From contig NZ_CP029488.1 of NCBI RefSeq assembly GCF_003177035.1, positions 3,912,501 through 3,976,500 on the forward strand: a DNA stretch of 64,000 bases, read 5' to 3'. The stretch comes from Salinisphaera sp. LB1 (lineage in GTDB: Bacteria > Pseudomonadota > Gammaproteobacteria > Nevskiales > Salinisphaeraceae). The stretch's first letter is position 1. Each line of letters opens with the position of its first letter. The position numbers and the translations under genes are program-made. Shown piece after piece: positions 25,854 to 37,276 of the stretch. The notes beneath the pieces were generated by a model that was not told the origin of the DNA, ran no database searches, and was given only the letters and a program-made list of their open reading frames with translations.

Positions 25854-26801
25854 CTACGAGCCGATCGTCTGCAACGCGATCGCGGCCGCCGCAGCGCGCG
25901 TCTCCACCCCGAGCTTCGGAAAGATGTGCTCGAGATGCTTGTTTACCGTTCGCGGTTTCATGTCGAGGATCTCGGCGATGTCGCGGTTGGTCTTGCCGCG
26001 CGAGATCCAGAGCAGTACCTCGGCCTGGCGCCGGGTCAAACTGAAACGGGCGACGAAATCGTCGATCGCGGCCTGGTCGTCAAACTCGACCAGCGTGAGA
26101 ATCACCCCGCCCTCCTCGGCCGGACCGGCGTAACGAATCGATAGCCGACCCAGTTCGCGCGTGACCTCGTACGGCCTGGATACGGATTCCGCGTGCTCCA
26201 GCCAGCGCAGCAGGCCGAACGGCAGTCGGCCGTCGATGTCGACATCGAAATAGCGCCGCAGGAGTTGCACGGCGCGCGAACTGTGCCAGCGGATACCGCC
26301 GTCGGCCGCGGTGATCAACGCCGCGCGGCCACCCGCGTTGACCACCATGTCGGCCTGGCGTTGTAAGCGGATGCGCTTGAGATGAGCCTCGATGCGAACG
26401 CGTATTTCGTCGGGTTTGAGCGGCTTGGTGACATAGTCGATGCCGCCAGCGCGAAAACCGCGCACGATGCTGTCGCTGTCGGTCAGCCCGGTCATGAAGA
26501 TCACGGCCATTCCGGCCAGTGCCGGGTCGCTCGTGATACGCCGGCAGACCTCGAAGCCATCCATTCCCGGCATGCGCGCATCCAGCAGTACGATATCGGG
26601 CGTGATCAGGCGGGCCCGCTCCAGCGCCGAATGGCCGTCGATCGCGGCGATCACGGTATAGCCGTCGCGCCCGAGCACTTCGGATACGAGCGCCAGCGTA
26701 TCCGGATGATCGTCGACCACCAGCACCACACCCCGTATCCGAGGGGCATCAGACGCTGGCTCCGTCTCATCGTGCGACATGACGTCATTGGCTACGACCA
26801 T
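25854..26801 (-). CDS. LuxR/NarL-family response regulator with REC domain
   Basis: 315 residues. REC domain about 22-140: acidic pair DD at 30-31, phospho-acceptor Asp74 (DIVLLDARMPGMDG), Thr in FMTG and Lys in VTKPLKP. A middle region (about 150-240) looks PAS-like. The C-terminal helix-turn-helix about 250-310 (LTRRQAEVLLWISRGKTNRDIAEIL..RTVNKHLEHIF) is of the LuxR type. Located 21 bp behind the NCS1-kinase gene on the same strand and therefore its presumed partner. Likely regulates the divergent transporter/amidase genes (inference). Confidence 0.9.
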   Translation of the reverse strand: MVVANDVMSHDETEPASDAPRIRGVVLVVDDHPDTLALVSEVLGRDGYTVIAAIDGHSALERARLITPDIVLLDARMPGMDGFEVCRRITSDPALAGMAVIFMTGLTDSDSIVRGFRAGGIDYVTKPLKPDEIRVRIEAHLKRIRLQRQADMVVNAGGRAALITAADGGIRWHSSRAVQLLRRYFDVDIDGRLPFGLLRWLEHAESVSRPYEVTRELGRLSIRYAGPAEEGGVILTLVEFDDQAAIDDFVARFSLTRRQAEVLLWISRGKTNRDIAEILDMKPRTVNKHLEHIFPKLGVETRAAAAAIALQTIGS

Positions 26802-26822
26802 GGCCTGCTCCTCGTCCTTTTT

Positions 26823-29800
26823 TCAGTCCTGCGCGGCGCGCGCCCGGCTCTCGTCGGCCAGGCGGCGCAGGCGTATCAATTCGTGCCGGCGCGCGGCGTC
26901 ACGCAGATCGGCCAGCTGCGGCGCATATTGCGGGTGCGCGGTCTCGATCGCGGCAATTTCGGCCAGGACGCCCGCCATGTGCCCGATATCGATAGCGCTC
27001 GTCAGCCGCTGGGCCAGCGGGACCGGCAACGGGTCGACCGTGTTCGACGGTGCCCTGTCGATCACACGGGATCGAGCTGTGGTTCGCGCGGGCACGTCGG
27101 GCGGCGCATCTGGCTCGCGTCGCTGCCATTGCAAATGCAATAACTCTGCCAGCCGATTGAAAAGCTCGGCGAGATTGATCGGTTTGGCCAGAAACGCATC
27201 ACAGCCGGCCATACGACTGCGCGCGATGTTATCGGCATAGGCATTGGCCGAAACCACCAGCACGGGCGCGGCGCTCAGGTGCCGCTCGCGAATCATGCGG
27301 GCCGTCTCGAAACCGTCCATACCCGGTATGGCGACGTCCATGAGGATCAAATCAGTGCGCTCGGTGGCCAACCAGTGGAGCGCATCGGCACCGTTCGCGC
27401 ACTCATTCAGTGCAAAACCCAGCGGCTCGAGCGCGGCACGCAAAATGCCGCGCTGATCCGCTCGGTCATCGACCACCAGCAGGTGCCGTCGCGCCCCTGC
27501 GTAGCCAACGATCGGCTGCGCGGGCGCACGCTCGCCGGCCGGGCGCGCGCAATTGGGCAAAAACACACGCAGCGCGAAGCGCGAACCGTTCGGTGCATTC
27601 GAGCTTACCGTCAGATCGCCGCCCATCAACTGGGTGAGCAACCGACAGATGGTCAGGCCGAGCCCGGCACCCACGCCGCCGTCGCCGCCTTGGGCCACAC
27701 GCTCGAACGGCAGGAAGATCTGCTCGCGTTTGTCGGGCGCAATGCCCGGCCCGGTGTCGATAATCTCGAATGCCGCCACTTCCGAGGCATAGTTCACGCG
27801 TACACATACCTCCCCGGTGAGCGTGAAACGAATCGCGTTGCCGATCAGATTGATCAGGATCTGACGCAGCCGTTGCAGGTCTCCGCGCACCGTGTCCGGC
27901 ACCCGCTGCGAGGTTTCGATGGAAAAATCCAGGCCCTTGGCGAGCGCCTGCGGCGCGAACATGGCATCCAGCTGATCGAGCAATGCGGGCATGTCGATCT
28001 CACCGACATGCAGCGATATACGTCCGGCTTCGATACGGGCGATATCCAGCAGGCCATCCACCAGGGCAAGCAGATGCTCGCCGCTGCGCTGGATGGTAGC
28101 GAGCTTGTCGGCATGCGCGGGCGCCATGTCGGGCTCGCGCATCAACAGCTGGGTATAGCCCAGCACGTTGTTCAGCGGGGTGCGCAGTTCGTGGCTCAAT
28201 CCGGAGACGTAACGGCTCTTGGCGCGGTTGGCCGACTCGGCCTCGGCTTTGGCCCGCGCCAGCTTGGCATCCGTCCGTTTGTGTGCCGCGACCTCGCGCA
28301 TCAGTAACCGGGTCTGGCGCGAGGACTCGTGCTGCGCCACATTGCGCGCCTCGCGCGCCAGGACCAGCCACCAGGCCAGGATGCCGACCGGCACCAGCAT
28401 CAGGAAAAAAGTGCGCAGGAAGATCGCCCACAACTGATGGCGCTCGGCGCTGTCCACCAGCGGCGTAATCTGGCTATAGACCGCGACCAGTGCGCCCACG
28501 AGCACGACCGACAACGCCACCAGCACCACGCCGTAGCGCGCCAGCCGCGTATACAGATGCGGCATCAAGGCACTCGGCAGCATACGTTGCAACAGGCCGT
28601 CGAGCTGAGCGGCGGCATGCGCACGCGGCCGGCAGCGGTCGCCACATCGCATGTCGAGACTGCAACACAACGAACAGATGGGCCCGGCATAGGCCGGGCA
28701 AGCGGCCATATCGTCGGTCTCGAAGCGGTTGTTGCATAGCACGCAGCGCGCGTGCCGGGTGCCATCATCCGCGAGTTGCGCCGCGGCGGCGGGCGTGCGC
28801 GCGAGATAGAACCGGCCGCCGGTGAGCCAGGCGATCACGGGCGCCGTGGCAAATGCACCCACAAGCGCGATCGCCGGCGCCGCGGCACGGCCGGCCACGC
28901 CGAAAACACCGCCATAGGCGGTCAGCGAAACCGCGCTCGCCAGAAGAAACGCCCCGATCCCGACCGGGTTCACGTCGTATAGATGCGCGCGCTTGAACTC
29001 GATGCCCGGTGGCGACAGACCGAGCGGCTTGTTGATCATCAGGTCCGCCGCCAGGGCGCCGAACCAGGCCGCCGCTACATTCGCGTACAGCCCAAGCACG
29101 CGCTCGATCGCGTGAAACACGCCCATCTCGAGCAGAATCAATGCGATCAGGACGTTGAACACCAGCCAGACCACGCGCCCGGGATGGCTGCGGGTAACCC
29201 GGGCGAAGAAATTGGACCACGCCAGCGAACCGGCATAGGCGTTGGTCACGTTGATCTTGACCTGCGAGACGATGACGAACAGCACCGTCGCCGCCATCGC
29301 GAGCCCCGGCGACGAGAACACATAACCGAAAGCCACGTCGTACATATGGGTCGGTTCGGTCGCGCGCGCATACGGCAGCTGGTGCTGTAGGGCGAGAAAC
29401 GCCAACAGCGCCCCGCCGAACATCTTCAGGCCGCCGAGCACCACCCAGCCCGGCCCCGCACCGATCACCGCCGCCCACCAGCGGATGCGGTTACCCGGGC
29501 CGCGCTCGGGCAGAAAGCGTAGATAGTCGACCTGCTCGCCGATCTGCCCGATCAGCGCCAGCGCAATCCCGCAGGCCGAACCGAAAGCGATCCAGTCGAA
29601 CGAGCCCGAGGCCTGCTGCCCGATATAGCGTTGAAACGCCGAGAATGCCGACGGCTGACGCACGGCGATGAACACATAGGGCAACACCAGCAGGGTCAGC
29701 CATAGCGGCTGGGTGAACCACTGCAAACGGTTGATCGCGGTGATGCCGAAGGTCACCAGCGGAATGATCGCCAGCGCGCTGATCAGATAGGCCAGCGGCA

Positions 29801-30248
29801 GCGTGATATCGAAATACAGCGATAGCGCCTGACCCATGATGGTCGCTTCAAGCGCGAAGAACAGGAAGGTGAAGCTGGCGTAGATCAGCGAAGTGAGCGT
29901 GGAGCCGAGATAGCCGAAGCCGGCACCGCGGGTCAGCAGGTCGATGTCCACGCCGTAGCGCGCCGCGGTATAGCTGATCGGCAGGCCGACGACGAAAATC
30001 GCGATACAGACCACGACGATCGCCCAGGCCGTGTTGACGAACCCGTAGCGCAGCATGAGTACGGCACCGATCGCCTCCAGCACCAGGAACGAGATGCCGC
30101 CCAGGGCCGTATTGGCGATGCGCAGTTCCGACCATTTGCGAGACGAGCGCGCCGTGAAGCGCAGCGCGTAGTCCTCGAGCGTCTCGTCGCCCACCCAGCG
30201 ATTGTAGGCCCGGCGGATCTTGACGACGCGTTGAGGCCCCATCGACAT
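26823..30248 (-). CDS. NCS1 permease-hybrid histidine kinase fusion
   Basis: 1141 residues. About 1-495: a full NCS1 (nucleobase/cation symporter-1) permease body with about 12 membrane segments, similar in sequence to the transporter encoded divergently. About 501-545: a Cys-rich module (CVLCNNRF..CPAYAGPICSLCCSL..CGDRC). About 555-625: two more membrane segments. Then a coiled linker, HisKA with phospho-His686 (SHELRTPLNN), HATPase (NLIGNAIRFT, DTGPGIAPD, GVGAGLGLTI) and a REC domain with Asp971 (DLILMDVAIPGMDG). The start at 30248 follows an AGGAAGGGG (30258-30266, minus strand); the ATG at 30323 is less likely. Predicted to sense a transported substrate and signal to the adjacent LuxR regulator. 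Confidence 0.92.
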   Translation of the reverse strand: MSMGPQRVVKIRRAYNRWVGDETLEDYALRFTARSSRKWSELRIANTALGGISFLVLEAIGAVLMLRYGFVNTAWAIVVVCIAIFVVGLPISYTAARYGVDIDLLTRGAGFGYLGSTLTSLIYASFTFLFFALEATIMGQALSLYFDITLPLAYLISALAIIPLVTFGITAINRLQWFTQPLWLTLLVLPYVFIAVRQPSAFSAFQRYIGQQASGSFDWIAFGSACGIALALIGQIGEQVDYLRFLPERGPGNRIRWWAAVIGAGPGWVVLGGLKMFGGALLAFLALQHQLPYARATEPTHMYDVAFGYVFSSPGLAMAATVLFVIVSQVKINVTNAYAGSLAWSNFFARVTRSHPGRVVWLVFNVLIALILLEMGVFHAIERVLGLYANVAAAWFGALAADLMINKPLGLSPPGIEFKRAHLYDVNPVGIGAFLLASAVSLTAYGGVFGVAGRAAAPAIALVGAFATAPVIAWLTGGRFYLARTPAAAAQLADDGTRHARCVLCNNRFETDDMAACPAYAGPICSLCCSLDMRCGDRCRPRAHAAAQLDGLLQRMLPSALMPHLYTRLARYGVVLVALSVVLVGALVAVYSQITPLVDSAERHQLWAIFLRTFFLMLVPVGILAWWLVLAREARNVAQHESSRQTRLLMREVAAHKRTDAKLARAKAEAESANRAKSRYVSGLSHELRTPLNNVLGYTQLLMREPDMAPAHADKLATIQRSGEHLLALVDGLLDIARIEAGRISLHVGEIDMPALLDQLDAMFAPQALAKGLDFSIETSQRVPDTVRGDLQRLRQILINLIGNAIRFTLTGEVCVRVNYASEVAAFEIIDTGPGIAPDKREQIFLPFERVAQGGDGGVGAGLGLTICRLLTQLMGGDLTVSSNAPNGSRFALRVFLPNCARPAGERAPAQPIVGYAGARRHLLVVDDRADQRGILRAALEPLGFALNECANGADALHWLATERTDLILMDVAIPGMDGFETARMIRERHLSAAPVLVVSANAYADNIARSRMAGCDAFLAKPINLAELFNRLAELLHLQWQRREPDAPPDVPARTTARSRVIDRAPSNTVDPLPVPLAQRLTSAIDIGHMAGVLAEIAAIETAHPQYAPQLADLRDAARRHELIRLRRLADESRARAAQD

Positions 30249-30271
30249 GTTGTGCCACCCCTTCCTGCGAC

Positions 30272-30292
30272 CGATCGAACGAGTTTCGATCG
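30272..30292. promoter_or_regulatory. Inverted repeat in the kinase leader
   Basis: Perfect 8-bp arms CGATCGAA and TTCGATCG around a 5-nt spacer, 24 bp upstream of the kinase start. Could be an operator half-site pair or a leader hairpin. Function unproven. Confidence 0.35.
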
Positions 30293-30326
30293 TACCGTCC
30301 CGATCCTGCAGGAAACGCGCCAACCA

Positions 30327-30344
30327 CTACGTCGAATGACGTAG
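30327..30344. promoter_or_regulatory. Palindrome between divergent sensor and transporter genes
   Basis: CTACGTC-GAAT-GACGTAG, perfect 7-bp arms, in the 331-bp divergent promoter region. Its symmetry and size suit a dimeric LuxR/NarL-type regulator, and such a regulator is encoded in the kinase operon. It is the best operator candidate here, but binding is inferred. Confidence 0.45.
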
Positions 30345-30579
30345 GCCACTGCGTTGATCGGCGTATATGCCGGCCCCGTCGCTTGCGCCAGTCTCGATAC
30401 CGAGCCGGGCGCTCGATCAGCGCGCCCGGCGTTCATGGAACAAACGACGCAAACCGCCGGCACCGGACCGAGCGACCGGCAACGCCCAGCGGCACCGGGC
30501 CGGCCGCGGTCGCGTCACAACACCGGCGGGCTCGGTACGACGCCGCCGGCAACTCGGGTCGACATCAACGGAGACGATA

Positions 30580-32241
30580 ATGAGTAGCGTGGTAAACGAA
30601 GGGGGGCGCAATCGCACCTTCAACAAATGGGTGAGCAACCCGGTGCTGGAGGACTATTCGCTGCGCTATGCGCCGAAATCCTTCCGCACCTGGTCGGAAT
30701 ACGCGGTGGCAACCGCCGCGCTCGGCGGCATCGCCTATATGGCCGATCAGGCCATCGGCGGTTCGCTGGCGGTGCAGTTCGGCTTCATGAACGCGTTCTG
30801 GGGTATTTTCGCGGCGGCGGTGATCATCTTTCTGACCGGCATCCCGATTGCCTACTACTCAGCGCGCTACAACGTCGACGTCGACCTGCTGACGCGCGGC
30901 GCCGGCTTCGGCTATCTCGGCTCCACCATCACGTCGGTGATCTACGCCAGCTTCACCTTCATATTCTTCGCCCTCGAAGGCTCGATCATGGGCCAGGCAC
31001 TGAATCTGTATTTCGGCATACCGCTGGCGATCGGCTATCTGCTGGGTGCGATCGTGATCATCCCGCTGGTGGTGTTCGGCATGAGCCTGTTGTCGAAGCT
31101 GCAGATGTGGACGCAGCCGATCTGGCTGATCCTGCTGTTCACCCCGCCGATCGCCGTGCTGTTTGGCAAGCCGCATGCGATCGCCGACTGGGTGCACTTC
31201 GGCGGCAACTCGCCGAGCCATGCCGGCTTCGACCCGTTGCTGTTCGGCACCGCGGCCGGTATCGCGCTGTCACTGATCGCCCAGATCGGCGAGCAGGCAG
31301 ACTATCTGCGCTTCATGCCCGACAAGACCCGCGCCAATCGCGGCAAGTGGTGGTTCGCGGTGCTGGCGGCCGGCCCGGGCTGGGTGATTCTGGGCGCGCT
31401 CAAGCAGTGGATGGGCTCGTTCTTCGCCTCGGTATCGGTGGCCAACGGCACGTCGCTGTCCCAGGCCGACCAGCCGATCCATATGTATGTATCGGGCTTC
31501 AGCTACATGTTCTCGAGCCCGTTCGTGGCCCTGTCGATCGCGACCTTCTTCGTGCTGCTGTCGCAGGTCAAGATCAACGTCACCAACGCCTACTCGGGTT
31601 CACTGTCCTGGTCGAACTTCTTCTCGCGCATTCTGCACAGTCATCCGGGCCGCGTGGTCTATGTGTTCTTCAACGTCGGCATCGCGCTGGCGCTGATGGA
31701 AGCCAACATGTTCGCCGTGCTGGGTCATATCCTCGGCTTTTATTCCAACGTGGCGGTGGCCTGGATCGGTGCGGTGACCGCGGATCTGGTGATCAACAAG
31801 CCGATCCTGAAGCTCAGCCCGTCCTACATCGAGTTCAAGCGCGCGCATCTGTACAACTTCAATCCGGTCGGCTTCGGTTCGATGATGTTCGCCTCGGTAA
31901 TCTCGGTGATTGCCTTTTTCGGCTACTTCGGCGCCTATGCCCAGTCCTACTCCTGCTTCATCGCGCTGGGCCTGGCGTTCGTGGCCTCGCCGATCGTCTG
32001 CCTGCTCACCCAGGGCAAGTACTACCTGGCCCGCACCTCGGAGAAAGAGCTGCGTGAGCATGAGCACGCCTCGATGATCGCCTGCATCTCCTGCGAGTAC
32101 GAATACGAGAAGAAGGACATGGTGTATTGCCCGTTCCACACCGGACCGATCTGCTCGCTGTGCTGCTCGCTGGAAGGCGCCTGTCATGACGTGTGCAAGG
32201 AACAGCCGGCCGCGGCCACCGCCCGCACGCAGACCGCCTAA
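30580..32241 (+). CDS. NCS1-family transporter with Cys-rich C-terminal tail
   Basis: 553-residue permease with about 12 membrane segments. Shares long identical stretches with the permease half of the neighbouring kinase (for example LLTRGAGFGYLGST, SQVKINVTNAY, EFKRAHLY). The tail (about 500-545) is a cytoplasmic Cys-rich module: ISCEYEYEKKDMVYCPFHTGPICSLCCSLEGACHDVC. Start ATG 30580 with GGAG 30570-30573 six nt upstream; the longer upstream frame is noise. Gene context (formamidase, FmdB, aliphatic amidase downstream) suggests uptake of a small amide or related N-compound. Nucleobase or hydantoin uptake, known for other NCS1 members, cannot be excluded. Confidence 0.9.
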   Translation: MSSVVNEGGRNRTFNKWVSNPVLEDYSLRYAPKSFRTWSEYAVATAALGGIAYMADQAIGGSLAVQFGFMNAFWGIFAAAVIIFLTGIPIAYYSARYNVDVDLLTRGAGFGYLGSTITSVIYASFTFIFFALEGSIMGQALNLYFGIPLAIGYLLGAIVIIPLVVFGMSLLSKLQMWTQPIWLILLFTPPIAVLFGKPHAIADWVHFGGNSPSHAGFDPLLFGTAAGIALSLIAQIGEQADYLRFMPDKTRANRGKWWFAVLAAGPGWVILGALKQWMGSFFASVSVANGTSLSQADQPIHMYVSGFSYMFSSPFVALSIATFFVLLSQVKINVTNAYSGSLSWSNFFSRILHSHPGRVVYVFFNVGIALALMEANMFAVLGHILGFYSNVAVAWIGAVTADLVINKPILKLSPSYIEFKRAHLYNFNPVGFGSMMFASVISVIAFFGYFGAYAQSYSCFIALGLAFVASPIVCLLTQGKYYLARTSEKELREHEHASMIACISCEYEYEKKDMVYCPFHTGPICSLCCSLEGACHDVCKEQPAAATARTQTA

Positions 32242-32249
32242 ATCGGCCG

Positions 32250-32276
32250 GGCCGCCGGCTGCATGCGCCGGCGGCC
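32250..32276 (+). terminator. Strong hairpin between transporter and fmdA
   Basis: 10-bp GC stem (GGCCGCCGGC / GCCGGCGGCC) with a 7-nt loop, 9 bp after the transporter stop. Only a loose pyrimidine tract follows (CCTTACCCCTATTCTTTT), so it may be a partial terminator or mRNA-stabilising hairpin that sets the transporter:amidase ratio rather than a full stop. Confidence 0.4.
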
Positions 32277-32316
32277 GGTCCTTACCCCTATTCTTTTCAT
32301 CGCAGGAAACTGAGCC

Positions 32317-33550
32317 ATGACGGACACCCTGATCAAGGTCGATCTCGATACCCACGCCACCCACAACCCGCAGACCCACAACCGCTGGCATCCCGATATT
32401 CCGATGGCCTGCTGGGTCAGCCCGGGCGACGATTTCATTCTGGAAACCTACGACTGGACCTCGGGCGCGATCGCCAACAACGACGACGCGTCTGACGTGC
32501 GCGACGTCGATCTGTCCACGGTGCATTACTTGTCCGGCCCGGTCGGTGTGAAAGGCGCCGAAGCCGGCGACCTGCTGGTGGTCGATCTACTCGACATCGG
32601 CGCACTCAAGGGCGCCGAATGGGGCTTCAACGGTTTTTTTCTCGAAACAGAACGGCGGCGGGTTCCTGACCGATCACTTCCCCTATGCCCAGAAGTCGAT
32701 CTGGGATTTTCACGGCCTGTACACCACCTCGCGCCACGTGCCGGGGGTGCGCTTCGCGGGACTCGTCCACCCGGGGCTGATCGGCTGCCTGCCCAGCCAG
32801 GAATTGCTCGACACCTGGAACAAACGCGAAGCCGACCTGATCGCGACGGATCCGGAGCGCGTCCCGCCGCTGGCCAATCCACCGGCCCCGCACACCGCGC
32901 ACATGGGTGCTCTGAGCGGCGATGCCCTGAAGAAAGCCGCTGCCGAGGGCGCACGCACGGTGCCGCCCCGTGAACACGGCGGCAACGTCGACATCAAGGA
33001 TCTGTCGCGCGGCTCGAAGATCTATTTCCCGGTCTATGTCGACGGCGGCGGGCTGTCGGTCGGCGATCTGCACTTCAGCCAGGGCGACGGCGAAATCACC
33101 TTCTGCGGCGCGATCGAAATGGCCGGCGGCTGGGTGCACATGAAGGTCGAGCTGATCAAGAACGGCATGGCCAAGTACGGCATCAAGTCGCCGATCTTCA
33201 AGCCCAGCCCGATCACCCCGAACTACCAGGACTACCTGATCTTCGAGGGCATCTCGGTGAACGAAACCGGGCAGCAGCACTATCTGGACGTCAACGTCGC
33301 CTACCGCCAAGCCTGCCTGAACGCGATCGAGTATATGACCCAGTTCGGCTATTCGCGCGCCCAGGCACATTCGATTCTGGGCGTCGCGCCCATTCAGGGC
33401 CACATCAGCGGCGTGGTCGATATTCCCAACGCCTGCGCCACGCTCTGGCTGCCGCAGGAGATCTTCGAGTTCGATATCAGCCCCGGCGCCGATGGCCCGA
33501 CAAAACGCCTGGACGGATCGGTGGACATGCCGATCGCATACGACGCGTAG
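32317..33550 (+). CDS. fmdA: Formamidase/acetamidase FmdA, interrupted by a 1-nt frameshift
   Basis: FmdA/AmdA-type amidohydrolase (formamide to formate and ammonia). The start at 32317 has AGGAA 8 nt upstream. The first frame reads correctly from TLIKVDLDTHATHNPQTHNRWHPDIP to GFNGFF, then fails at a T7 run (32634-32640). Removing one T gives GFFSKQNGGGFLTDHFPYA and the remaining family sequence (PGVRFAGLVHPGLIGCLPS, GGNVDIKDLSRGS, GGLSVGDLHFSQGDGE) to the stop at 33550. Repaired length is 410 residues, normal for the family. As written, the product is a 218-residue truncation. Sequencing error, recent mutation and slippage are all possible. Confidence 0.85.
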
Positions 33551-33557
33551 GCCTGCC

Positions 33558-33890
33558 ATGCCGATCTACGAATTCGACTGTCCCAACTGCGGCGGCTTTT
33601 CGGCGATGCGGCCCATGGCCGAGTCGCAGGCGCCCGGCGACTGCCCGAGCTGCGGCATCGCGTCGCGCCGCGTGATTCTCTCTGCGCCACGTGTCTCACG
33701 CGTATCCAAAGCCACCCGCGTGGCGCACGAAACCAACGAGCGCAGCGCGCATTCACCGCATACATCCGCCACCTACGGCGGCGGCCATCCGGCTGGATGC
33801 GGCTGCTGCTCGACAGCCCGCCGGCCGGCCGGTTCGACGCCGCCGACCCGAACTCGAACCGATCATCGCCCCTGGATGATCAGCCACTGA
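33558..33890 (+). CDS. fmdB: FmdB-family zinc-ribbon protein
   Basis: 110 residues. The N-terminal FmdB zinc ribbon MPIYEFDCPNCGGFSAMRPM..DCPSCG has both CxxC knuckles. The C-terminal half is low-complexity with a late CGCC. FmdB was described as a regulator of formamidase expression in Methylophilus; its biochemical role is unclear. It begins 7 bp after fmdA, so it is co-transcribed. The C-terminal 35 residues are Pro/Thr/Arg-rich and poorly structured. Confidence 0.88.
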   Translation: MPIYEFDCPNCGGFSAMRPMAESQAPGDCPSCGIASRRVILSAPRVSRVSKATRVAHETNERSAHSPHTSATYGGGHPAGCGCCSTARRPAGSTPPTRTRTDHRPWMISH

Positions 33891-33949
33891 TCGGGCCATC
33901 AACACCCCAGCCATGCGCGGCTCGCTACGCGCTCTGACGGAGAACGAAC

Positions 33950-34993
33950 ATGAGACACGGAGATATTTCCAGCAGCGCCGACACCGTCGGCGTCGCGGTG
34001 GTCAACTACAAAATGCCGCGCCTGCATACCCGCGAGCAGGTCGCTGACAACGCACGCAAGATCGCGGAAATGGTCAAGGGCATGAAGGTGGGTTTGCCGG
34101 GCATGGACCTGGTCATCTTTCCCGAATACTCGACCCACGGGATCATGTACGACGCCGACGAGATGATGGCGACGGCGTCGCCCATTCCGGGCGACGAGAC
34201 CGAGATCTTCGCGGCTGCTTGCCGCGAAGCCGATACTTGGGGCGTGTTCTCGATTACTGGCGAGCGGCACGAAGAGCACCCGAAAAAATCCCCTTACAAC
34301 ACGCTGATCCTGATGAACAATCAGGGTGAGATCGTGCAGAAATATCGCAAGTGCATTCCCTGGTGTCCGATCGAGGGCTGGTATCCGGGCGACGACACCT
34401 ATGTCTGCGAGGGGCCCAAGGGCCTCAAGATCAGCCTGATCATCTGCGACGACGGCAACTATCCCGAGATCTGGCGCGACTGCGCCATGAAGGGCGCGGA
34501 GCTGATCATTCGTTGCCAGGGCTATATGTACCCGGCCAAGGAACAGCAGATCATGATGTCCAAGTGCATGGCCTGGGCGAACAATTCGTATGTTGCCGTG
34601 GCCAACGCCGCCGGCTTCGACGGCGTGTATTCCTACTTCGGCCATTCGGCGATCATCGGCTTCGACGGCCGGACCCTCGGCGAGTGCGGCACCGAGGAAA
34701 ACGGCATTCAATACGCCCAGCTGTCGGTCTCGGCGATTCGCGACGCGCGGGCCCACGATCAATCGCAAAATCATTTGTTCAAGCTGCTGCATCGCGGTTA
34801 CACCGGCGTTCACGATTCCGGTGACGGCGAACAGGGCGTGGCCGAATGCCCGTTCACCTTCTATCGCGACTGGATCAACGATCCGGCGGCCACGCAACAG
34901 CGCGTCGAGGCGCTGACGCGCCCGGCGGTCGGCACCGATCAGTGCCCGGTCAAGGATCTGCCCACGACCGGGCGTACCGGCACCGACGGCTGA
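33950..34993 (+). CDS. amiE: Aliphatic amidase
   Basis: 347-residue nitrilase-superfamily amidase that hydrolyses short-chain aliphatic amides to the acid and ammonia. Closely resembles Pseudomonas AmiE from the first residues ([25 protein letters not shown]). The catalytic triad sits at the canonical numbers: Glu59 (FPEYS), Lys134 (KYRK), Cys166 (ICDDGN). Also [16 protein letters not shown]. No amiC/amiR homologues are adjacent, so control is probably by the upstream two-component system. The formamidase AmiF is a close paralogue and cannot be fully excluded. Confidence 0.93.
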
Positions 34994-35076
34994 GCGGATC
35001 GCCGTGCCGCGCAGAAGCAGGCCGGCGACTTCCCGCCAGGTCCGATGAATATGGGCTGCGCCGGCTGAATTGATGT

Positions 35077-35100
35077 GGATGGGCGCAGCTGCGCCCATCC
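35077..35100. terminator. Perfect 24-bp palindrome after amiE
   Basis: GGATGGGCGCAG followed directly by its reverse complement, 83 bp past the amiE stop. As RNA it folds into a stem of up to 12 bp with no unpaired loop in the perfect form. No T-tract follows. May end the amidase operon, or be a protein-binding palindrome. The rest of 34994-35299 shows no gene. Confidence 0.4.
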
Positions 35101-35299
35101 GATGCGTGGGCAACAGTCGGCTTTGCATCGTGAACGCGACCACGCAGCGAATGCGCACCGATGGCCGCCCGTTCGCCGCCAGCCGCCCCGGGCGTCATGC
35201 CATGGCTATGGTACCGTCGCGGTAACACTCGCAGCGGCCGATCCCGGGCCAGCCGATACCGCTCGGCGACGCGTGATCGCCCTACGCCGGGAGATTTGC

Positions 35300-37276
35300 T
35301 TGTCGCAATCGATGGCCAGTACAGGACATCTTCAAGCGCGCTATATCGATGATTTCGAGCAGACGCTCGAACGCCTGTCCACGGCGCCTTCGTTTTCCAA
35401 ACTCACGCATCAAATCCAGTTGCTGGGCCGTGCGCAGAAGTTGCTGCGCACCCCCGCGGGCGTCGAGGCCCTGTACTCGTTCGCCCCGCGATTCGATACG
35501 GCCGGGGTTTTTCTGGGCGGCGACTGGCTGGATCCGGGGCAACTCGAGCCGGCCCTGGCCGGGCCGACGCTGCGCGCTGGCGGCGCCGATGCCACGTTGG
35601 AAAGCCTGAGCGAGCTCCGCCTGCTGGCGATCGCCGAACGGATCGCGACGAGCGACCGGCTCACGGCCGACGCCGCCCGCGCGCTTCTGTGCGAGATCCT
35701 CGCCGCGAATCTCGATTTGCTGTTCCCCGTGGCCACCGAAGCCACGCGCGACACACACAACGCAACACTCGACCGCGCGCAAACGCTGTTCGACTTTTTG
35801 TTCGCCCGCGTTGGCGCGGGCGCGATCCTCGACGCCCTCGTCGCCGAGGTCGAACGCGTCATGGCGCAGCGCCCAATCGCCCTGGGGCGGGTGACATCAC
35901 TGCTGGTCGCTGCCGAGCGGGCTCTTGCCACGGGTGATGTCGATGACGCCGCCGCCGCCCGTGCCACGCCGTGGCTCCGGGCGTTACGTGCACCGACCGA
36001 ACTCACCACCCGGGTGAGCCGCGACGACTATCCGGCGGCACTCGCCGAACTCGACGACCGCGCACTGGCGGCCGAAGCCGCCGTTTTCGGTCGTTCGATG
36101 ACGCGCCACGGCCTGGTCTGCCCGGCGCACGCCGATCTGGCGCAGCATCTGTGCCGGGCCGCACCGGCACTCCTGCCGGTCGCACTGGATCTCGACGCTA
36201 CCGGCCAGGCCGCCTGGGCCAGGCATTCCGATGCAATCGAAACGCTGATTCAGATCAGCGTGATGCAATCCACCGCGTCGGCGATTTACGGGCTGTCGCG
36301 ACTGCTGAACGACGGCATGGCCCGGCTGGATACGGTGCTGCCGGGGCTGGACCGCCTGACCCGGCTCGCGCTTCATCCGCGCGTCGCGCACGCCTTGACC
36401 GAGACCGATCCGCGCGTACCGGCGATGCCACGTCTTGTCGCCGGCGCCATCGCAGTACTCGGCCAGCCCCGCGGTATCGATCAGGGTTTCAACCCCACCT
36501 GTCAGGCGGCCCGCGCGAGCTGCCTGTGGAGCTGCAACGATCCGGCCCGTTTACTGGCACTGCTGATCGAGGCCAGCGAAACGAACGACCTGGTGTTCGA
36601 CTTCGAGAACCAGCCGATCCGGGCCAGCGAAACCGGACTCGGCATGGCCAAAACGCTGCACACCGAGCTCGATCCGGTATCGCTCGTGCTCACGCCGCAT
36701 CTGGATCGCATCTATGTCGAGATGGGTCGGCGCACCGCGCTTCGCCCCGGCGACGGTCATCGCTGGGTCAACCGCGAAATGCACGGCGCCTGGGTTGCGC
36801 CGGATTTCGCCGAATTGATCGACCTGGCCGCTGGCGGCATCGCCCAATTCGAGGCTTTCATTCGCCTGTTCCATGCCAGTTACCACCCCACGTTCAACGG
36901 CGGACGCGAGGTGGAATACGCCCAGCCCTGCGGTATCGCCGCCACCGACGCCGCCGGCAGCTATATCGGCTGGCATGCCATATCGATCCAGCGCGTGGCG
37001 CGCGATCCGGGCGGTATCTGGCGGGTCTATTTCTTCAATCCGAATCGCGACAAGGGGCAGAACTGGGGTCAAGGGATCGAAACCTCGACCGCCGGTGCCG
37101 GCGAGCTCGCCGGCGAATCGTCGCTGCCGTTCGGCCAGTTCGCGTCGCGTCTGTACGTCTTCCATTACCACGGCCACGCCACCGGCGATCCGGCGGCGGT
37201 GCCCGAGGCCGACGTGGACGCCATCCGGGAATTGGTCGCGGCCAGCTGGGGCGCGCGATTCACCTGGCTCGAATGA
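35300..37276 (+). CDS. Unrecognised protein with papain-like Cys/His/Asn arrangement
   Basis: 658 residues if the TTG at 35300 (GGGAG 6 nt upstream) is the start; the ATG at 35312 is 4 codons in. No signal peptide or clear membrane segment. The N-terminal ~380 residues are helical and Ala/Leu-rich. The C-terminal ~280 residues show RGIDQGFNPTCQAARASCLWS (Gln395, Cys401), GSYIGWHAISIQRV (His559) and YFFNPNRDKGQNWG (Asn580). That order and context match the Gln-Cys-His-Asn set of papain-like cysteine proteases or transglutaminase-like folds. I know no named family for the whole protein. Monocistronic and convergent with the ATP-grasp gene. Confidence 0.75.
   Translation: MSQSMASTGHLQARYIDDFEQTLERLSTAPSFSKLTHQIQLLGRAQKLLRTPAGVEALYSFAPRFDTAGVFLGGDWLDPGQLEPALAGPTLRAGGADATLESLSELRLLAIAERIATSDRLTADAARALLCEILAANLDLLFPVATEATRDTHNATLDRAQTLFDFLFARVGAGAILDALVAEVERVMAQRPIALGRVTSLLVAAERALATGDVDDAAAARATPWLRALRAPTELTTRVSRDDYPAALAELDDRALAAEAAVFGRSMTRHGLVCPAHADLAQHLCRAAPALLPVALDLDATGQAAWARHSDAIETLIQISVMQSTASAIYGLSRLLNDGMARLDTVLPGLDRLTRLALHPRVAHALTETDPRVPAMPRLVAGAIAVLGQPRGIDQGFNPTCQAARASCLWSCNDPARLLALLIEASETNDLVFDFENQPIRASETGLGMAKTLHTELDPVSLVLTPHLDRIYVEMGRRTALRPGDGHRWVNREMHGAWVAPDFAELIDLAAGGIAQFEAFIRLFHASYHPTFNGGREVEYAQPCGIAATDAAGSYIGWHAISIQRVARDPGGIWRVYFFNPNRDKGQNWGQGIETSTAGAGELAGESSLPFGQFASRLYVFHYHGHATGDPAAVPEADVDAIRELVAASWGARFTWLE

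Follow-up and report, generated by a model that had tools for sequence, protein, structure and literature searches.

Histidine kinases of the SLC5/STAC type (CbrA, CrbS/MxtR, RpuS) carry an N-terminal transporter fold, are often hybrids paired with a LuxR-type regulator, and act through a repeat operator to control how their presumed ligand is taken up and used (PMC9100948, PMC5715377). KsAmt5 of Candidatus Kuenenia likewise joins a nitrogen-related transporter domain to a histidine kinase (PMC5764959, PMC8534201), and it sets a precedent in that its transporter domain serves for sensing but transports inefficiently (PMC8534201). The subject of this study is a protein of comparable layout, P0001, encoded in a 64-kb stretch of DNA from a host of the genus Salinisphaera; the whole stretch is referred to as the window, and all coordinates are positions within it. 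P0001 is a single open reading frame (ORF) of 1141 residues in which a permease, an 8-Cys module, two transmembrane helices, HisKA, HATPase and a receiver domain (REC) follow one another, in the order that an earlier note on this DNA had given. In contrast to the SLC5/STAC kinases, it is modelled with an NCS1 instead of an SLC5 fold, its linker consists of the 8-Cys module and the two helices, apparently in place of a STAC domain, its ligand class appears to be amide/urea, and its predicted operator is unlike the ACTU motif. From KsAmt5 it differs in transporter superfamily and in the nitrogen compound concerned. We consider it quite probable that P0001 belongs to a two-component system whose permease input domain senses a short-chain amide or urea and which switches on import and hydrolysis.

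Formamide- and urea-inducible operons were recognised decades ago. The formamide- and urea-induced fmdCABDEF cluster of Methylophilus methylotrophus resembles the loci considered here in its formamidase, FmdB and short-chain amide/urea ABC transporter, but the available portion of its description names a putative positive regulator and no sensor or permease-kinase; a sensor, a regulator and a DNA site for fmd-type control are proposed here, where that portion had named only the putative regulator (PMC10781810). The UTS locus (UrtABC/AmiF) of Klebsiella pneumoniae CG307 is a cassette of the type, urt genes plus an AmiF formamidase, that adjoins the fused kinase in Klebsiella plasmids (locus L132), but a text search of the preprint returned neither 'histidine kinase' nor 'two-component' (PMC13060141). 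Pseudomonas veronii Yu15, which uses acetamide and formamide as nitrogen source, has a chromosomal amiE-fmdA-fmdB-urtABCDE locus in which no amiC/amiR was found (PMC13209695). A hybrid kinase and a LuxR-type regulator are drawn by the urtABCDE operon of Ectopseudomonas guguanensis, in a source whose accessible part does not discuss the fusion (PMC13296017). No description of the fusion, its regulator or its operator was found in the open-access full-text literature, subscription papers lying outside the scope of the search, and the novelty of the family is therefore provisional. If the reading is correct, the permease-kinases would join SLC5/STAC and Amt as a further transporter-kinase family of independent origin, and would explain how many bacteria detect formamide, acetamide or urea as nitrogen sources. 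They would also offer a comparative system for the path from transporter fold to receptor, in which a single fold exists as sensor and as transporter, the two sometimes being adjacent.

The permease-kinase fusion and its predicted pocket

The catalytic residues of HisKA, HATPase and REC, together with an adjacent regulator, identify P0001 as the hybrid histidine kinase of a two-component system (domain boundaries in Table 1). H686 and D971 do not vary across 112 relatives. The best-conserved parts of the protein are the permease body and the Cys module, with mean identities of 62% and 64% across 111 relatives as compared with 40% for REC. The fusion is not a chance event, as dozens of genera contain it. 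The Cys module comprises C502, C505, C517, C525, C528, C529, C535 and C539; its cysteines are invariant among the relatives, and it is probably zinc-binding. Fold searches with the module alone returned treble-clef/FYVE/LIM/RING-like matches so weak (Z at most 4.3) that no fold is claimed for it. Long helices follow at 566-595 and 598-666 in the AlphaFold2 (AF2) model (numbered as in A1, two less than in P0001). No Pfam family matched the linker formed by the module and the two helices, for which no search with STAC's own profile was made.

The permease body is modelled with a predicted local distance difference test score (pLDDT) of 81.9. Its best fold match is CodB (Z 34.7, root-mean-square deviation 3.4 over 399 residues), followed by Mhp1 (Z 29.7, 434 residues); the next families score about 23, among them the SLC5 members CHT1 and the sialic acid symporter at about 21-23, so the domain is not of SLC5 type and its best fold is NCS1. 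Profile-profile comparison with NCS1 proteins by hhalign agrees (probability 99.4, E 6.5e-22, residues 18-469). The likeness to CodB and Mhp1 lies in the fold, whereas identity is 16% and the NCS1 family PF02133 is not reached: neither 25 fused members, even at E 10, nor the stand-alone permease encoded beside the kinase, likewise at a permissive threshold, matched it, and a PDB sequence search with the permease returned no related entry. A urease-linked relative does clear PF02133, with 31.8 bits against a cut-off of 23.5. Because of the modelled fold, the profile-profile comparison and this relative, the permease fold is assigned to NCS1 (Transporter Classification 2.A.39), with the family sitting at the edge of NCS1. 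The NCS1 type proposed in the earlier note is thus retained at the level of fold and profile, and not at that of Pfam membership.

The substrate and Na+ sites of NCS1 transporters, the alignment of which had been suggested, were compared through Mhp1. We take S312 and T313 of Mhp1 to be its Na2 residues, with W117, W220 and Q121 also among the presumed Na+/substrate-binding residues. In P0001 the Na2 pair is not retained, S312/T313 being replaced by K331/I332, and W117, W220 and Q121 correspond to F130, L232 and E134. Because these site residues are replaced, the alignment suggests a small, non-aromatic ligand and neither a Na2 site nor Na+ dependence. Hydantoins, previously listed among candidate compounds, found no support. 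E134, Q235, E238, Q239, K331, N333 and N336 are invariant in 112 fused proteins, and the pocket residues of the fused proteins are also found in the aligned set of stand-alone permeases.

Gene context and predicted operator

Query proteins were mapped onto about 120 loci, and contexts were counted in the 75 fused loci whose flanks extend 8 kb or more upstream and 6 kb or more downstream. A gene set of the amide kind (urtABCDE-fmdA-fmdB-amiE), recognised by an amide-type urtA, an fmdA or both and in many cases including fmdB and amiE, lies beside 42 of them, and urease and/or urea-type urtABCDE beside 28; a LuxR-type regulator is adjacent in 73. Annotated examples from Burkholderia, Methylobacterium, Paraburkholderia, Klebsiella, Chelatococcus and Azospirillum agree with this amide/urea context. 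Short-chain-amide or urea genes being present in 70 of 75 contexts, the idea that the kinase is an orphan acting on some unrelated target was discarded, and the consistent linkage to unrelated pathways that would have spoken against the earlier proposal is the opposite of what is seen.

The genes that accompany the sensor are exchanged while the sensor stays. Within Salinisphaera, the transporter slot is held by urtABCDE in three loci (L142-L144) and by a permease in the window and two others (L049, L141), and the sensors remain up to 82% identical despite this swap. The permease form of the slot also occurs in another genus (L211) and in Methylovirgula (L135), where the layout differs. The formamidase is exchanged as well, the Klebsiella enzyme being AmiF-type (PRK13287, 601.8 bits, cut-off 406) and not FmdA. 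Since transporter and formamidase are swapped while the sensor is kept, the sensor tracks the pathway and not a partner protein. The earlier note had held that the sensor detects the substrate of the paralogous permease next to it. An amide or urea substrate is in keeping with the contexts, but the tie to the paralogue must be given up, as UrtABCDE, an unrelated ABC system, occupies that slot in most amide-type loci, including those of three other Salinisphaera.

The control region is marked by a palindrome, TACGT-N6-ACGTA, present in the kinase-transporter intergenic region of 37 of 112 loci with a spacer of 6 every time. In the window it forms the predicted operator TACGTCGAATGACGTA, which is separated from the start of the kinase by 79 bp and from that of the permease by 236 bp; the exact palindrome occurs once in the 4.14 Mb host genome, in the kinase/permease promoter at 30328-30343. 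There are 60 copies of the relaxed form TACGY-N6-RCGTA in the 45.6 kb of DNA upstream of the kinases, and 31 in 2.21 Mb elsewhere. Across 2.77 Mb of family loci, 98 of its 102 sites are located within the 450 bp upstream of the kinase, urtA (amide/urea type), the permease, fmdA or amiE, as compared with 3 of 15 sites for a reversed-motif control. The flanks of the palindrome carry almost no information. Chance and shared ancestry were rejected as origins of the palindrome on the basis of this control and the nearly unconserved flanks. In urease-context loci, a position weight matrix of the operator finds sites in 5 of 43 kinase-upstream regions, and the palindrome stands mostly upstream of the urea urtA instead. 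A sigma70 promoter was looked for near the operator and not found. We infer that the adjacent LuxR-type regulator, whose gene lies 21 bp past the kinase stop, is the natural candidate to bind the palindrome. Contexts and operator placement together lend support to the proposal of a fused permease that may detect an amide or a related compound, with a phosphorelay that would turn on import and hydrolysis.

The stand-alone permease shares 51% identity with the fused one. It had been recognised as sharing the features of the fused permease, to which its own 8-Cys module can be added; its start is at 30580, not 30367. Because it carries the Cys module too, the module is not kinase-specific. In a quick maximum-likelihood tree, which omits six sequences without the permease-trimming motif and whose root is unsure because the outgroup branch is very long, the fused proteins group together in one clade (Shimodaira-Hasegawa-like approximate likelihood ratio support 97) that is sister to the fmd-type stand-alone permeases (93), with the urease-linked stand-alone permeases placed outside both (99). 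A single nested clade (99) holds most of the sensors from urease contexts, a pattern to be expected from ligand specialisation. The transporter is thus a paralogue, as described, but a recent duplication of the kinase's permease was rejected given the 51% identity and the separate clades. A stand-alone relative adjoins urease in Acinetobacter (L134), and such homologues in urease operons tie the permease family to urea. The host has a third copy (L138, G000:C1:552629-554176), with a shortened Cys module, at the end of a urease operon; a permease in that position is also seen in other Salinisphaera.

Proposed mechanism and competing explanations

In the proposed mechanism, formamide, acetamide and/or urea would bind the permease-type pocket of the kinase, and a conformational change would reach HisKA by way of the Cys module and the two helices. 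The kinase would phosphorylate the LuxR-type regulator directly, or its own receiver domain would tune the transfer. Once phosphorylated, the regulator is predicted to bind TACGTC-N4-GACGTA and to induce both its own operon and the import and hydrolysis operon. The stand-alone permease would import the amide, from which AmiE, together with FmdA where intact, would free ammonia. As to the fused permease itself, we lean towards a protein that senses without significant transport.

Should the fused permease instead be a full transceptor, it would import amide or urea while signalling, and output would follow transport turnover rather than binding alone. This is possible, if doubtful. The permease body and pocket are equally conserved in fused and stand-alone proteins, where a mere shell should degenerate, and CbrA is reported to be both a histidine transporter and a kinase (PMC13022988, PMC7096432). 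However, pocket conservation is equally expected from ligand sensing alone, most amide-type loci encode a dedicated transporter (urtABCDE or permease) alongside, and the Amt-kinase KsAmt5 retains its transporter fold and transports inefficiently (PMC8534201). A different simplification makes urea the single true ligand throughout, with the amidase genes controlled gratuitously through the likeness of urea and formamide. The 28 loci beside urease or urea urtABCDE, the stand-alone relatives in urease operons and the urea inducibility of the Methylophilus fmd cluster (PMC10781810) would all suit such a ligand. We nevertheless regard it as unlikely, because the amide set accompanies 42 loci, formamidase is retained even where its protein family differs, and the urease-context sensors fall mainly into one nested clade, as ligand specialisation would have it.

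Transporter-coupled kinases exist, and in most amide-type loci the kinase and transporter genes are close together, which would suit a kinase that monitors the neighbouring transporter or its product (for example ammonia), its permease domain serving for interaction or as a membrane anchor. We find this improbable. The Salinisphaera sensor type stands beside an ABC transporter or a non-homologous permease, and in other loci the sensor is beside urease with no amide operon, so that a fixed partner is unlikely; the strong conservation of the pocket residues would, moreover, be left unexplained.

Several points count against reading P0001 as an amide/urea sensor. The whole case is genomic, the ligand, phosphotransfer, DNA binding and expression being deduced from sequence and models. 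Motif and neighbourhood bear on which genes are regulated and not on the signal, and the trigger could be ammonia, the transport state or another signal. An internal receiver with no obvious histidine phosphotransfer (HPt) domain leaves the phosphate route ambiguous. The loci were picked by similarity to the query, and the counts are therefore not those of a random sample; 5 of the 75 fused loci have neither an amide nor a urea gene set nearby. In the host, a frameshift in fmdA may mean that the pathway is partly degraded there.

Neighbouring genes and distribution

Table 1. Features of the permease-kinase locus (positions in the window; residues of P0001 unless stated otherwise)
Feature	Coordinates	Strand	Basis or remark
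Fused permease-hybrid histidine kinase P0001, 1141 aa, single ORF	26823..30248	-	
NCS1-fold permease body of kinase (modelled), residues 22-485	28794..30185	-	AF2 model, fold search, hhalign
8-Cys module of kinase, residues 500-542	28623..28751	-	Cys positions, invariance, model
Two extra membrane helices and coiled coil into kinase, residues 560-670	28239..28571	-	AF2 model
HisKA, residues 675-741, phosphoacceptor H686	28026..28226	-	Pfam PF00512 1.9e-16
HATPase_c, residues 788-895, N/G1/F/G2 boxes all present	27564..27887	-	Pfam PF02518 7.1e-24
Receiver domain REC, residues 923-1032, D971	27153..27482	-	Pfam PF00072 3.9e-24
Cognate response regulator, REC and LuxR-type helix-turn-helix, 315 aa	25854..26801	-	Pfam PF00072, PF00196
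Predicted operator (TACGY-N6-RCGTA family)	30328..30343	.	Motif search
Stand-alone NCS1-fold permease, 553 aa, predicted importer	30580..32241	+	Occupies slot held elsewhere by urtABCDE
8-Cys module, C-terminus of stand-alone permease	32083..32199	+	Alignment, BLAST
fmdA, formamidase, frameshifted	32317..33550	+	Pfam/NCBIfam halves; ORFs 32317-32973, 32738-33550
fmdB, zinc-ribbon RPWMISH protein	33558..33890	+	NCBIfam NF053663 128.8 bits, cut-off 120
amiE, aliphatic amidase	33950..34993	+	NCBIfam PRK13286 equivalog 703.3 bits, cut-off 427

The stand-alone permease, fmdA, fmdB and amiE are divergent from the kinase. The regulator, fmdB and amiE are confirmed as described by Pfam and NCBIfam; fmdA is present in the divergent operon as expected but is split by a +1 frameshift, with one extra base in the T7 run at 32634-32640. 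As a result, its halves score 165.6 and 491.5 bits against the NF045496 equivalog (cut-off 500), as compared with 741 for the intact gene of L141. In the Salinisphaera and other relatives inspected, fmdA is intact and has no extra base at the T7 run; the frameshift could be an assembly error or mark a true pseudogene. Downstream of amiE, a 733-aa protein (35075-37276) matches no Pfam or NCBIfam family, and a similar ORF follows amiE in L141.

Among 398 sampled Pseudomonadota genomes, 52 contain strong matches to the fused protein (E < 1e-100), which with few exceptions are themselves fused and 1100-1200 aa long, and a scan of named genomes returned at least 598 matches. The early fused branches have different outputs. 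L150, L151 and L212 carry simple kinases, and in genome G566 the permease-Cys-2TM unit (2TM denoting the two transmembrane helices) is joined to PAS-GGDEF-EAL in one protein (L213:6849-10520) and to a PAS-kinase-REC hybrid in another (L214:9023-12841). Because of these branches, the permease-Cys-2TM part appears to behave as a portable input unit, as SLC5/STAC does. With moderate confidence, we suggest that the unit has been joined to at least four outputs (HisKA hybrid, simple kinase, PAS-kinase hybrid and PAS-GGDEF-EAL acting through c-di-GMP) and that some versions may transport while signalling.

Plasmid records with matches number 513, of which 338 are from Klebsiella. At 99% identity or more, the Klebsiella kinase gene is matched in 6 of 5426 E. 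coli genomes, and in 4 of these the match covers most of the gene. The reading proposed here predicts how the amide/urea uptake cassette moving with enterobacterial plasmids is controlled. The AmiF-type cassette is found on many Klebsiella plasmids (L132) and in a few E. coli genomes (L227, NCTC11129 chromosome), flanked by insertion sequences and with a second acetamidase/formamidase transporter cluster nearby. In Zoogloea and other Rhodocyclaceae-type loci (L073, L075, L081, L083), kinase and regulator stand without amide or urea genes in the stretch seen, and their targets may lie elsewhere in the genome. Genome G672 has two fused kinases about 9.5 kb apart (C1:1531970 and 1541445; L216, L217), just one of which has the amide operon beside it in the stretch seen.

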